Assembly: GCA_018671575.1 (NCBI GenBank)
Contig: JABHHM010000373.1
Span: 1 to 38,092 of the forward strand
Reading direction: 5' to 3'
Length of the DNA stretch: 38,092 bases
DNA from: Methylococcales bacterium
GTDB lineage: Bacteria > Pseudomonadota > Gammaproteobacteria > JABHGC01
Each line of letters starts with the position of its first letter. Position 1 is the first letter of the stretch. Positions 21,065 to 32,858 of the stretch are shown piece by piece. The notes under the pieces were generated by a model, which worked only from the letters and a program-made list of their open reading frames with translations, was not told the DNA's origin and did not search any database. Made by a program: the position numbers and the translations under genes.

Positions 21065-23182
21065 ATGGCAAAACAATCAATTAAATATCCTCGAGTAATC
21101 ATCGTTACAGGAATTCCATTACAGGGGGATAATCTCTCAAAGTTACTGCAACAATATGGCTTGAGTATTAGTAAAATACTGAGACATGATGATCAACTAC
21201 TGACACAGTTAACGGCTCAAGATGCCGATGTTTTATTGGTAGATTTATGTGACTCTGATGATAACGAGCTTAATTTAGATGCCCTTGATGGTTTATTAGA
21301 CCAATCACAATTACCCATTCTGTTTAATGACATTCACATGGAAAACTCTCCCAGTAAACTGGGAGCCAAAATGGTCAGTAAATTATATGACGTCCTTGAA
21401 TGGGAAAAACCCGATACTTTCAAACCTGGCTCAACTAAAAAAATAACCTCTAAAAAATCAACCGCATTGAGCCAACACCATGCCAAAAAAGCCAAACCAT
21501 TAGAAAAACCATTGGGCAAAATATTATTAGATGCAAGAAAAATATCCGAAGAAAATATAGAAAAAGCCCTCATTACTCAGTCTGAACAAGGTGGAAGCCT
21601 CGGTGATATTTTAGTTTCCATGGAACTCATTACAGAAAAAGACTTTGCCATTGCCTTATCAAAACAACTGGGGCTTCCCATTGCAAGGCCCTCTGACTAC
21701 CCAGAAGAAGCATTATTAGCTGAAACAATTAGTGAACGCTTTCTTCAGGAATTCCAGGTCATTCCCATTAAAGAACGCTCAGACGGCATAGCCATTGCCA
21801 TGTTAGACCCCACCAATGATTATATCAAAGAAGCCATTCATTTAGCCGTTGACAAACCCGTTATCTGTTGTGTGGTGGTGATGTCCGAGTTTCGCAAAGC
21901 CTTTGAAAAACTCTATGGTGCAGGTAAAAGTATTATGGAACAGATTGCCGATGATATTGGTGGCGATGAAGACTTTTCTGATGAAGATGATGTTGAACAT
22001 TTAAAAGATTTAGCCAGCGAAGCCCCCATTATTCGTCTAGTAAGCCTAGTTATTCATGATGCCATCGCAGCACGAGCATCTGATATTCACATTGAACCTT
22101 TTGAAACCAACTTAAAAGTTCGATATCGAATCGACGGCATATTAAAAGACGTTGAATCTCCACCATCAAGCTCTTGTGCAGCAGTCATTTCTCGCATTAA
22201 AATCATGGCAAAACTGGATATTGCAGAACGCCGATTACCTCAAGATGGACGAATTAAACTTCGGGTTGAAAATAAAGAAGTAGATTTAAGGGTATCAACC
22301 ATTCCAACCATGCATGGTGAAAGTATCGTCATGCGTATTTTACTCAATGACAGTATCGCCACTGATTTTGACTCACTGGGTTTTGTTGGTGAACCCTTAG
22401 ATATTTATTTAGAATGCTTAAATCAACCACATGGTATTTTATTAGTCACGGGTCCAACAGGTAGCGGAAAAACCACCACACTCTATACCTCATTACAAAA
22501 ACTCAACACCCCTGGACGAAAAATTTTAACCGTAGAAGACCCCGTGGAATATCAACTAGAAGGCATCAATCAAATTCAAGTTAAACCATCCATCGGCTTG
22601 ACCTTTTCAGATGCCTTAAGATCCATTGTCAGACAAGATCCAGACATCATTATGATAGGTGAAATGAGAGACCTTGAAACAGCACAAATAGCCATTCAAT
22701 CTGCTCTCACGGGTCACATGGTATTATCAACATTACACACCAATGATGCACCCAGCAGCTTAACTCGATTAATGGACATGGGCATTGAAGACTATCTCAT
22801 CACTTCTTCAGTATCAGGTGTATTAGCCCAGCGCCTGGTGAGAAAACTATGTGATCATTGCAAATCTGACCTCACCGCTTGTGAAGAATTAATTGAAGAA
22901 ATGAACTTAATCAAATATACAGACAATAATCACTTACACTTAAAGAAAGCGGTTGGTTGCCATAAATGTAATGGAACAGGCTATAACGGACGTTTAAGTA
23001 TTGTACAAATGATGTTGATGACTGACCCAATCAGACGCCTGGTCATGCAACACGCTGATGCCAGAGAAATACAGAAAAAAGCCTTAGAATCAGGCATGGA
23101 ATCCATGTTAGATGATGGCCTGAGAAAAGCGGTAAAAGGACTCACAACCGTTGAGGAAGTGCTTAGAGTGACTCAAGACTAA
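21065..23182 (+). CDS. gspE: GspE/PilB-type secretion ATPase with extra N-terminal pseudo-receiver domain
   Basis: A 705-residue traffic ATPase that would power pseudopilus or pilus assembly at the inner membrane. From the C-terminus back: a tetracysteine zinc motif (Cys596, Cys599, Cys632, Cys635), Walker B DIIMIGEMRD (527-536), Walker A GPTGSGKT (463-470), the Asp-box RASDIHIEPFE, and an MshEN/T2SSE-N domain (about 150-255, LGKILLDARKIS and LGDILVSMELIT). The first ~115 residues are unusual: a receiver-like fold start (VIIVTGIPLQGDNLSKLLQ, then DADVLLVDL and LPILFNDI) that resembles the N-terminus of ChpB/CheB proteins of pilus chemotaxis. It overlaps the next gene by one base. GspE is the most likely identity; MshE or PilB are alternatives. 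Confidence 0.85.
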   Translation: MAKQSIKYPRVIIVTGIPLQGDNLSKLLQQYGLSISKILRHDDQLLTQLTAQDADVLLVDLCDSDDNELNLDALDGLLDQSQLPILFNDIHMENSPSKLGAKMVSKLYDVLEWEKPDTFKPGSTKKITSKKSTALSQHHAKKAKPLEKPLGKILLDARKISEENIEKALITQSEQGGSLGDILVSMELITEKDFAIALSKQLGLPIARPSDYPEEALLAETISERFLQEFQVIPIKERSDGIAIAMLDPTNDYIKEAIHLAVDKPVICCVVVMSEFRKAFEKLYGAGKSIMEQIADDIGGDEDFSDEDDVEHLKDLASEAPIIRLVSLVIHDAIAARASDIHIEPFETNLKVRYRIDGILKDVESPPSSSCAAVISRIKIMAKLDIAERRLPQDGRIKLRVENKEVDLRVSTIPTMHGESIVMRILLNDSIATDFDSLGFVGEPLDIYLECLNQPHGILLVTGPTGSGKTTTLYTSLQKLNTPGRKILTVEDPVEYQLEGINQIQVKPSIGLTFSDALRSIVRQDPDIIMIGEMRDLETAQIAIQSALTGHMVLSTLHTNDAPSSLTRLMDMGIEDYLITSSVSGVLAQRLVRKLCDHCKSDLTACEELIEEMNLIKYTDNNHLHLKKAVGCHKCNGTGYNGRLSIVQMMLMTDPIRRLVMQHADAREIQKKALESGMESMLDDGLRKAVKGLTTVEEVLRVTQD

Positions 23183-24321
23183 TGAAACAACATAACGCCA
23201 AAGAAAAAATTAGATTTTTACTCAAGCAGAGTTTAGGAACCACCCATTTTAAAGCATGGTGGTGGAATCAGGTTGCCTTTTTATTTCCTGAAAAACTGGT
23301 CAAATTATTCATCACTCACAAAGGCATCGTCAGGCTACAATTAAATGCCCCTAATTTATCTGTCACTCGTTTTGAGGACGACCAAAACAAAACCGTTCAG
23401 AAAGAAGCGTTACCCCTGTCAAAAATTAAAGCATCAAAAGACAAACCACTGACCATTCTTGATCAATTTGACCCACATGAGACTCAAATTGAAATCTGCC
23501 TACCTCAAAACCATGTTTTAATCACCGAATTAAGCTTTCCCCTGGCTGTCGAAGAAAATCTTACCGAAGTCATTCAATTTGAAATAGACCGATACACACC
23601 TTTTACCCTTGAACAGGTTTATTTTAGTCATCGCATCATCGACAAACAAGAAGAACAAATTGTCGTTGAATTAACCTTAACACCTCGCAAAAAACTACAC
23701 GAATTACTTAACCTATTTAAAAACTGGCAAGTCATTCCTGATCGTATCTATGCCGTCCCAAAAAATCATGACTATTCCAGATTACCCAATAACAGTCAGC
23801 ATAATCTGATTCCTGATGAATTGAGAATTAAAAAACAAAAACCTTGGGGACAACTCAATTTTATCATGACAATTGTCACTATAGTGCTATTTTGCATCCT
23901 GTTAATTAGCCCGATCATTCAAAAAAGTTTAGATATTACAGAACTCAACACTTTAATTAAAAATGCCAAAAAAGAAGCCAATGAAACCAGTAAAATTCAA
24001 AATACTTTAGACCGTATGGTCAATGAAGCTAATTTTTTGGTCAATAAAAAACAGCAAACGCCCCTTTTCATTAAAACCATCACTGAAATTTCTAGCCTGC
24101 TTCCGACGGATAGCTGGATTCATATGATGGAACAAAATGGAGTGGAAGTCAGAATTCAAGGCAAGTCACCCTCACCCTCTTCTTTGATTGGTCAAATGGA
24201 AGCATCTGATTTATTTGAAAATGCCAAATTTAGATCACCTGTCACACGAGATGCAAAAACGGGTTTGGAACGATTTCATTTATCGGTTGATTTAATCACC
24301 AAAAATCGAGATTCAAAATGA
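23182..24321 (+). CDS. gspL: GspL/PilN-like inner-membrane assembly protein
   Basis: A 379-residue bitopic protein. The cytoplasmic part carries a reduced PilM/GspL-like fold (LPQNHVLITELSFPLAVEEN, FEIDRYTPF). One membrane helix follows (about 227-249, FIMTIVTIVLFCILLISPII), then a periplasmic coiled coil and a PilN-type ferredoxin-like domain (ISSLLPTDSWIHMMEQNGVE). This is the layout of non-canonical GspL proteins, which link the ATPase to the pseudopilus platform. Its ATG overlaps the ATPase stop codon and its end overlaps the next gene by 4 bp, so the three genes form one tight operon. Confidence 0.75.
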   Translation: MKQHNAKEKIRFLLKQSLGTTHFKAWWWNQVAFLFPEKLVKLFITHKGIVRLQLNAPNLSVTRFEDDQNKTVQKEALPLSKIKASKDKPLTILDQFDPHETQIEICLPQNHVLITELSFPLAVEENLTEVIQFEIDRYTPFTLEQVYFSHRIIDKQEEQIVVELTLTPRKKLHELLNLFKNWQVIPDRIYAVPKNHDYSRLPNNSQHNLIPDELRIKKQKPWGQLNFIMTIVTIVLFCILLISPIIQKSLDITELNTLIKNAKKEANETSKIQNTLDRMVNEANFLVNKKQQTPLFIKTITEISSLLPTDSWIHMMEQNGVEVRIQGKSPSPSSLIGQMEASDLFENAKFRSPVTRDAKTGLERFHLSVDLITKNRDSK

Positions 24322-24914
24322 AACGTTTAGACAAATCAACCCAAAAAACACTGGCGTTAGGGCTATTAGCCCTCAGTATTTTAATCACCCTATCATTAAC
24401 CATCATCCCTGCCATCGTTCTTAACTACAGCTTTAATGAAACAATCATTACTCTGGATGATCGCTTAAAACGTTATCAACGCATTGCCAATAAAAAACCA
24501 ATCTTACAAAAACAACTCAAATCACTGCAACAAAATTATTCAGGACGGGATTATTACCTTAAAAGCAAAGGTGAATCCTTGGCTTCTGCCGAACTCACCA
24601 AACTGGTTAAACGAACCATTAAAAGAAATGGTGGTGAAATTATCAGCACTCGAGTCATCAGCAACAAGCCCGACAAAAAAACCAAAAAAAACAGCACCTT
24701 TAAAAAAATTACCATCAAAGTAGAAATTCGTGGCAATATCAATGCACTACAAAAAGTACTCTACAAACTGGAAATGGGCAAACCACTGTTGTTTATTGAT
24801 GCTGTAAGAATACGTTCTAGGAACCGATTTAGGAGAAATTCTCGAAGTAATAATTCTGCTGATACAGGTAATCTTGATATACGAATGGAAATTTCTGGGT
24901 ATATGAAAATTTAG
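24318..24914 (+). CDS. gspM: GspM/PilO-like inner-membrane assembly protein
   Basis: A 198-residue protein with a short cytoplasmic N-terminus, one membrane helix (about residues 11-35, LALGLLALSILITLSLTII), a coiled coil and a periplasmic ferredoxin-like domain ending LDIRMEISGYMKI. This fits the GspM 'b' type. ATGA overlap with gspL suggests coupled translation. It is the last gene of the operon and its stop overlaps that of the opposing membrane-protein gene. No gspC, D, F, G or K gene follows, so the rest of the machine must be encoded elsewhere. Confidence 0.72.
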   Translation: MKRLDKSTQKTLALGLLALSILITLSLTIIPAIVLNYSFNETIITLDDRLKRYQRIANKKPILQKQLKSLQQNYSGRDYYLKSKGESLASAELTKLVKRTIKRNGGEIISTRVISNKPDKKTKKNSTFKKITIKVEIRGNINALQKVLYKLEMGKPLLFIDAVRIRSRNRFRRNSRSNNSADTGNLDIRMEISGYMKI

Positions 24915-32273: not shown

Positions 32274-32858
32274 ATGAATAAACAGAACTTACAAGCTGGT
32301 TTCACAATGGTTGAATTGGTCATTGTTATCGTAATTTTAGGAATTTTAGCCGCGGTTGCCGCACCAAAATTCATGAATATTCAAGGCGATGCTAAAATAT
32401 CTGCGGCAAAATCAAATTTAGGTGCCGTACGTACTGGCGTTTCCTTAGCACATGCAAAAATATTGGCTTCTGGTCAAAACACAGGTCGAACAGGTAACAA
32501 TAAAGACTGGCCAACATTGGTTGAATTACGTGCAAATAAACTTGCTGCCAACAGAATTTCTGCAACACAAAACCTCCAAATAGCAGAATCTGATGCGGTT
32601 TCTGGTGTTAACAATGCGTCACTACCAAAAATGGAACTGCCTAACATGACAACAGCTCAAGTAGCAGCTTCAAGACAAGTGAGAGACCGTAGCCGTGCTA
32701 ACTCTGCAACCAGAAACTTTAATGGAAATGAAGGTTGGTCATATTACCCTGGCGATGAAATTGTTAGTGTAACACGTATTGCAGATGCCGTATTATGGAT
32801 TAATGATCAAACAACAACCAATCAAGATGGTGCAGGTACTAAACCCAACAAATGGTAA
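32274..32858 (+). CDS. Type IV pilin-like protein (MshA or pseudopilin type)
   Basis: A 194-residue prepilin. The leader MNKQNLQAG is followed by the cleavage site and FTMVELVIVIVILGILAAVA: Gly9/Phe10 with Glu at +5 (Glu14). The N-terminal helix leads to a variable globular part rich in Asn, Thr and Ala, ending NQDGAGTKPNKW, with no cysteine. It resembles MshA-type or secretin-system pseudopilins. GGAGGGA is the ribosome-binding site. It stands alone with its own terminator and a CRP-type box upstream. It could be a substrate of the GspE-like ATPase at 21065, which shares a CRP box (inference). Confidence 0.88.
   Translation: MNKQNLQAGFTMVELVIVIVILGILAAVAAPKFMNIQGDAKISAAKSNLGAVRTGVSLAHAKILASGQNTGRTGNNKDWPTLVELRANKLAANRISATQNLQIAESDAVSGVNNASLPKMELPNMTTAQVAASRQVRDRSRANSATRNFNGNEGWSYYPGDEIVSVTRIADAVLWINDQTTTNQDGAGTKPNKW

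Follow-up and report, generated by a model that had tools for sequence, protein, structure and literature searches.

The window, a 38,092-nucleotide stretch of DNA from a Methylococcales bacterium, encodes a GspE-class ATPase that carries an extra domain at its N-terminus (Table 1). The reading frame passes the GspE equivalog cut-off of TIGR02533 in an NCBIfam scan. It starts at the ATG at 21065 and a TAA lies two codons upstream, so a longer N-terminus is not possible. The start of the following GspL/PilN-like gene overlaps the gspE stop (TAATG), and this gene is in turn overlapped by one for an XpsM-type GspM. The three overlapping genes therefore form the E-L-M block of an Xps-like type II secretion system. 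Xps-like GspE proteins share these same features: they pass TIGR02533 and are followed by GspL/PilN-like and XpsM-type GspM genes. From these gene neighbours, we infer that the window GspE powers protein secretion. By its motifs the motor is otherwise complete, with Walker A, the Walker B region, and both CxxC pairs in place.

Some 7 kb downstream of these three genes, the plus strand encodes a prepilin-type protein (32274-32858, TIGR02532 above cut-off), a candidate pseudopilin for this secretion system. The same genome holds a paralogous block (L012, G000:C179, 403-5135, minus strand) with a second fused GspE and PilN/GspL-like and GspM-like genes. After the GspM-like gene, inspection by eye found a small GspC-like protein, which had no Pfam match, and a cyclic-nucleotide-binding-like protein. 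A further T2SSE ATPase of 776 aa in this genome (L005, G000:C511:4784-5962) has what looks by eye like a GAF-like N-terminus.

Table 1. Features of the fused gspE gene and its neighbours in the window, and ExeA-like loci with a poly-A run at the domain junction.
Feature	Position	Strand	Evidence
gspE-class ATPase gene, 705 aa, N-terminal pseudo-receiver	21065..23182	+	TIGR02533 647.8 bits, cut-off 630.25
ChpB-type truncated pseudo-receiver, residues ~9-113	21089..21403	+	ChpB-only profile, AF2, VIA
ADVLLVDL, third strand, holds D60	21224..21247	+	profile-profile alignment, conservation columns
LPILFND, fourth strand, holds N88	21311..21331	+	profile-profile alignment, conservation columns
Lys/Ser-rich linker, residues ~114-148	21404..21508	+	low confidence in AF2 model
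MshEN tandem 24-residue motifs, residues 149-201	21509..21667	+	NF053729 52.8 bits, cut-off 38
Pfam MshEN domain, residues 202-288	21668..21928	+	PF05157 E 2.5e-13
T2SSE ATPase core, residues 317-701	22013..23167	+	PF00437 E 5.7e-148
Walker A	22451-22474	+	motif check
Walker B region	22646-22672	+	motif check
CxxC pairs	22850-22861, 22958-22969	+	motif check
GspL/PilN-like gene	23182..24321	+	PF05137 E 7.8e-11
GspM gene, XpsM type	24318..24914	+	PF10741 E 2.1e-22; NF040576 139.6 bits, cut-off 60
ExeA-like loci with junction poly-A	L122, L100, L114, L117, L073, L120 (genomes G310, G308, G156, G266, G333, G263)		

Residues 1-148 of the window GspE are extra, made up of a domain and a linker, and neither Pfam nor NCBIfam reports a family above cut-off before residue 149. 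The preliminary description had counted about 115 extra residues ahead of the ATPase, which was borne out (about 113 before the MshEN region by Pfam and NCBIfam), and the strings VIIVTGIPLQ, DADVLLVDL, and LPILFND that it had picked out were confirmed in the translation. Several searches were of little use for receiver identity. Single-sequence Pfam was too weak (Response_reg E 0.16, 12.6 bits against a cut-off of 30.2), and a single-query phmmer search of PDB sequences matched receivers and designed barrels at no better than chance level. Profile A2 against the same sequences gave weak receivers mixed with designed proteins, and we discarded this result as evidence.

For kinship we relied on an independent profile built from 14 ChpB N-termini with no GspE rows, which was searched against the window's own genome. 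The N-terminus of the window GspE was the top match in the genome (E 1.0e-17) and that of the paralogous GspE ranked second (E 9.3e-14), with ordinary receivers from third place onward at E 1.5e-5 and weaker. Moreover, the paralogue shares the N-terminal region directly (37% identity, E 3e-13). Together, the paralogue match and the top two ranks indicate a likeness beyond chance, and the resemblance to ChpB/CheB N-termini that had been suggested from the sequence holds up. When 75 genomes (the window's own and relatives) were searched with the region, 18 had matches of E 0.1 or better. The frames behind these matches were GspE proteins (the paralogue and one in genome G001) and CheB methylesterases that share the N-terminal signatures, and the weak end consisted of ordinary receivers and unrelated proteins. 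ChpB has the N-terminal domain, the signatures, and the predicted truncated fold in common with the window GspE, but in ChpB the domain is followed by a CheB methylesterase domain, whereas in the window protein a type II secretion ATPase stands in that place; a Pfam scan found no PF01339 in the window GspE. Among the ChpB proteins that we scanned, and among AAA ATPases with a C-terminal copy, which we take the liberty of labelling ExeA-like, no Pfam or NCBIfam model covers the pseudo-receiver above cut-off. We conclude that the N-terminal region is almost certainly a ChpB-type truncated pseudo-receiver.

The predicted fold is that of a receiver. AF2, given the window N-terminal region and six ChpB N-termini as rows, returned a model in which the domain forms four strand-helix units; its pTM is 0.66, and its pLDDT averages 74.9, rising to about 90 in most of the core blocks. 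The top Foldseek matches in the PDB were mainly receivers. In a VIA-align ranking of the Foldseek candidates, the top place went to CheB 6ymz (106 aligned, rmsd 2.8, Z 11.0) and the fourth to CheB 1a2o (104 aligned, rmsd 2.6, Z 10.6). As many other receivers score within about 1-2 Z of 6ymz, the fold resembles receivers in general and not CheB alone. Structure prediction had been proposed as a check on the receiver assignment, and AF2, Foldseek, and VIA-align all return this fold. A profile-profile match to nine ordinary receivers (probability 97, E 3.4e-11) covers columns 8-88 only, and its end at column 88 indicates that the alpha4-beta5 part is missing. The model of a ChpB N-terminus built from the AF2 rows shares the layout of the window domain, including the missing last strand, and its second strand is too short to be listed. 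Thus, the window domain shares with CheY/CheB receivers (PF00072) the fold and the first four beta-alpha units, but lacks alpha4-beta5 and the first acidic residue, the Thr/Ser, and the Lys.

Could such a domain be phosphorylated? We take the receiver phosphorylation site to consist of an acidic pair, an Asp, a Thr/Ser, and a Lys. D60 aligns with the phospho-Asp and is the sole site residue present in the window domain. T15 and G16 occupy the first and second acidic columns, N88 stands at the Thr/Ser column, and the Lys has no place because the alpha4-beta5 region is missing. We counted conservation over 82 rows (ChpB 60, ExeA-like 12, GspE 3, other 7), after removing three rows under 90 residues from both this count and the tree described below. 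The Asp column holds D in 62 rows, N in 14, A in three, E in two, and T in one, with D in all three GspE copies. The first acidic column holds A in 34 rows, S in 27, G in six, and T in five, among others; the second is D or E in 35; and at the Thr/Ser column, 54 rows have N and eight have S or T. With most of the site absent from the domain family, a CheY-like phospho-switch in the window GspE is unlikely. The degraded site across the family agrees with a review that regards ChpB as presumably unphosphorylated (PMC12632253). The preliminary description had viewed the fusion as a sensory input to an assembly motor. The receiver fold, the ChpB kinship, and the uncommonness of the extension stand; the sensory input stays a conjecture, and docking or positioning is in better accord with the mostly lost phosphorylation site.

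The pseudo-receiver and linker are followed by an MshEN region that passes the NCBIfam c-di-GMP motif model (NF053729). In motif I, R1 is replaced by P and G10 by R; in motif II, R1 is replaced by S and G10 by E. Measured against the motif RLGxx..xxG.. as given in PMC5013675, the Arg and the second Gly are lost in both motifs, and beyond R1 and G10 there are two and one further departures. G10 is kept in both motifs of the paralogue and of the G001 GspE. The same paper ties changes at key MshEN residues of XpsE to lost c-di-GMP binding (PMC5013675). The degenerate motifs and this precedent make c-di-GMP control of the window motor doubtful. MshEN beside an ordinary REC domain has also been described (PMC5013675). 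Those proteins resemble the window GspE in pairing MshEN with a receiver-type domain; by that description they carry REC, and the window protein is set apart by its truncated ChpB-type pseudo-receiver.

How widespread is the fusion? We found it in both genomes of the order that we examined, with two copies in the window's own genome (G000) and one in G001, which belongs to a second genus and in which the third- and fourth-strand signatures are recognisable. By eye, gspL and gspM are not next at the G001 locus. Wider searches used profile A2, which includes GspE rows and therefore inflates the E-values of GspE matches. With matches accepted up to E 1e-3, it picked out 113 of 369 genomes of the class; with the limit at 1e-7, it picked out 55 of 383 genomes drawn from the class a second time and 19 of 398 from the phylum. 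These draws overlap, and each includes the window's own genome. We opened a minority of the class matches between 1e-7 and 1e-3, leaving out, among others, the long frames of G352, G030, G299, and G257; of the matches opened, L070, L071, and L072 seem to be signalling proteins with ordinary receivers. The 85 domain-bearing rows, among them some duplicated entries (L065/L124, L066/L096) and one split protein (L115), comprised 63 CheB, eight ExeA-like, and three GspE proteins and 11 that were other or cut, four of these 11 having the ATPase in another frame. A further 18 domain-bearing loci comprised 12 CheB, three ExeA-like, and three other proteins. No GspE fusion beyond the three known copies was found among these rows and loci.

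Orthologues point the same way. The nearest full-length GspE orthologues from ten other families are 49-59% identical, with frames of 563-626 aa. The pseudo-receiver is absent from all eight that we read out, in which Walker A lies at 328-381, against 463 in the window GspE. Either this order acquired the domain or all other lineages lost it, and acquisition is the simpler account. The combination of a ChpB-type pseudo-receiver with GspE is rare; as the survey proposed in the preliminary description has turned out, it is not a common GspE extension but is confined, among the loci examined, to the two genomes of the order. In a tree over 113 columns, both G000 GspE domains lie next to ExeA-type domains (83/74), and that of G001 lies next to ChpBs (83/59). 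With the copies placed apart, the tree does not settle the source of the GspE domains.

The domain also occurs at the C-terminus of ExeA-like AAA ATPases, whose nearest model is TIGR03015 (304.9 bits; cut-off 324.5). At six of 15 ExeA-like loci (Table 1), a poly-A run of 9-10 nt lies exactly at the junction of ATPase and pseudo-receiver, and none of the retrieved stretches (GC 0.56-0.71) has another run of at least nine A or T. At four of the six, the ATPase and the pseudo-receiver are in different frames. To judge from the sequence, the run looks like a candidate site for programmed frameshifting or transcriptional slippage. Other hosts of the domain include a 587-aa protein that appears by eye to be a membrane transporter, with the domain at its C-terminus (L124, G317:C218), and two proteins of 474 and 497 aa (L068 and L069, from G102 and G317) that carry the domain and a second, weaker copy; the L068 protein has no Pfam family.

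We also considered which Pil-Chp genes accompany the fusion, a survey that the preliminary description had proposed. In the window's own genome (90.5% complete), a PilJ-like gene precedes a ChpA-like one (E 1e-116), after which, by eye, neither chpB nor chpC follows on that contig. Its three CheB proteins all have other N-termini, and the two GspE proteins are the only strong matches to the ChpB profile. In G001 (94% complete), genes resembling pilG, pilH, pilI, pilJ, chpA, and chpC stand one after another by eye, with no chpB between chpA and chpC and no CheB domain anywhere in the genome. In named genomes, where six ChpB loci were found, chpB lies by eye between ChpA-like and ChpC-like genes. 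Thus, chpA accompanies the fusion in both genomes, but ChpB was found in neither. The retention of chpA, the missing ChpB, and the presence of a fused GspE suggest that the domain may have outlived its enzyme.

What might the pseudo-receiver do for the motor? We propose that, from its place next to the N1 (MshEN) region of this Xps-like motor, it would bind a partner independently of phosphorylation, and that this binding would recruit or position the motor or adjust the N1 ring. The partner would most likely be a Pil-Chp/type IV pilus polarity protein to which the ChpB N-terminus would also bind, or the motor's own GspL. We put docking or positioning as the job of the domain at about an even chance, and the chances are similarly balanced for the statement as a whole, namely that a ChpB-type pseudo-receiver at the N1 end of an Xps-like GspE acts as a phosphorylation-independent docking module. 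The best published analogy for such a role would be ChpB itself at the leading pole, where its presence depends on PilG (PMC12632253). Several points weigh against the proposal. Pure docking has no need of D60, which is kept in every GspE copy, and the motor is of the type II secretion kind, so that the Pil-Chp link is guilt by domain. The lack of gspL and gspM behind the G001 gspE and the split placement of the GspE domains in the tree count against it as well.

The conserved Asp would be explained if the domain were a working receiver in which ChpA, present in both fusion genomes, or another kinase phosphorylates D60 to switch the motor. This is improbable, given that T15, G16, and N88 replace site residues, that the Lys region is missing, that the Asp column holds another residue in 20 of the 82 rows (N in 14; A, E, or T in six), and that Response_reg scores far below its cut-off. 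A pseudo-receiver could instead bind c-di-GMP, as do Caulobacter ShkA and Cle (PMC10333796), and so supplement or replace the MshEN site; a second site could compensate for the loss of both Arg and both second Gly there. However, the Cle motif [Y/F]xGPx[R/K]R (PMC10333796) was not found by eye in residues 1-150, and we give this reading little credence.

Rather than docking to an outside partner, the domain might act within the motor, as an intramolecular or oligomer-interface module for autoinhibition or N1-ring spacing. Its position directly ahead of N1/MshEN, across a Lys/Ser-rich linker, and the intact motor core agree with this; its N-terminal place on ChpB and C-terminal place on ExeA-like ATPases suggest a portable surface rather than a GspE-specific part, and we consider an internal role unlikely. 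Finally, the domain could be a functionless leftover of the fusion, which is known in two genomes only and in which the paralogues are 37% identical in the pseudo-receiver against 53% over the whole protein. However, both paralogues and a second genus have kept it with recognisable strand signatures, which makes a leftover a poor explanation. To return to docking, a more speculative and rather doubtful extension is that a lineage which lost the ChpB methylesterase from the chemosensory operon of its pilus kept the domain as an address tag tying type II secretion motors to the polar Pil-Chp hub that the pilus also reads, and that the domain is a portable "pilus/secretion hub" docking module for ChpB, ExeA-like ATPases, and GspE.

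Among the open-licence PMC papers that our searches listed, no title or abstract opening points to a ChpB-type domain on GspE. The idea of a receiver with MshEN is known from PMC5013675, and what is new is that GspE carries a pseudo-receiver of the ChpB type. According to a 2024 review, the recruitment of PilB by PilG is an open mechanism, and no PilG/PilH-PilB interaction is reported (PMC11656802). The chemosensory link to assembly motors is thus still open, and a ChpB-type domain on a motor ATPase is a testable candidate for motor addressing. Moreover, naming the domain would show annotators the connection between ChpB, GspE, and ExeA-like ATPases.
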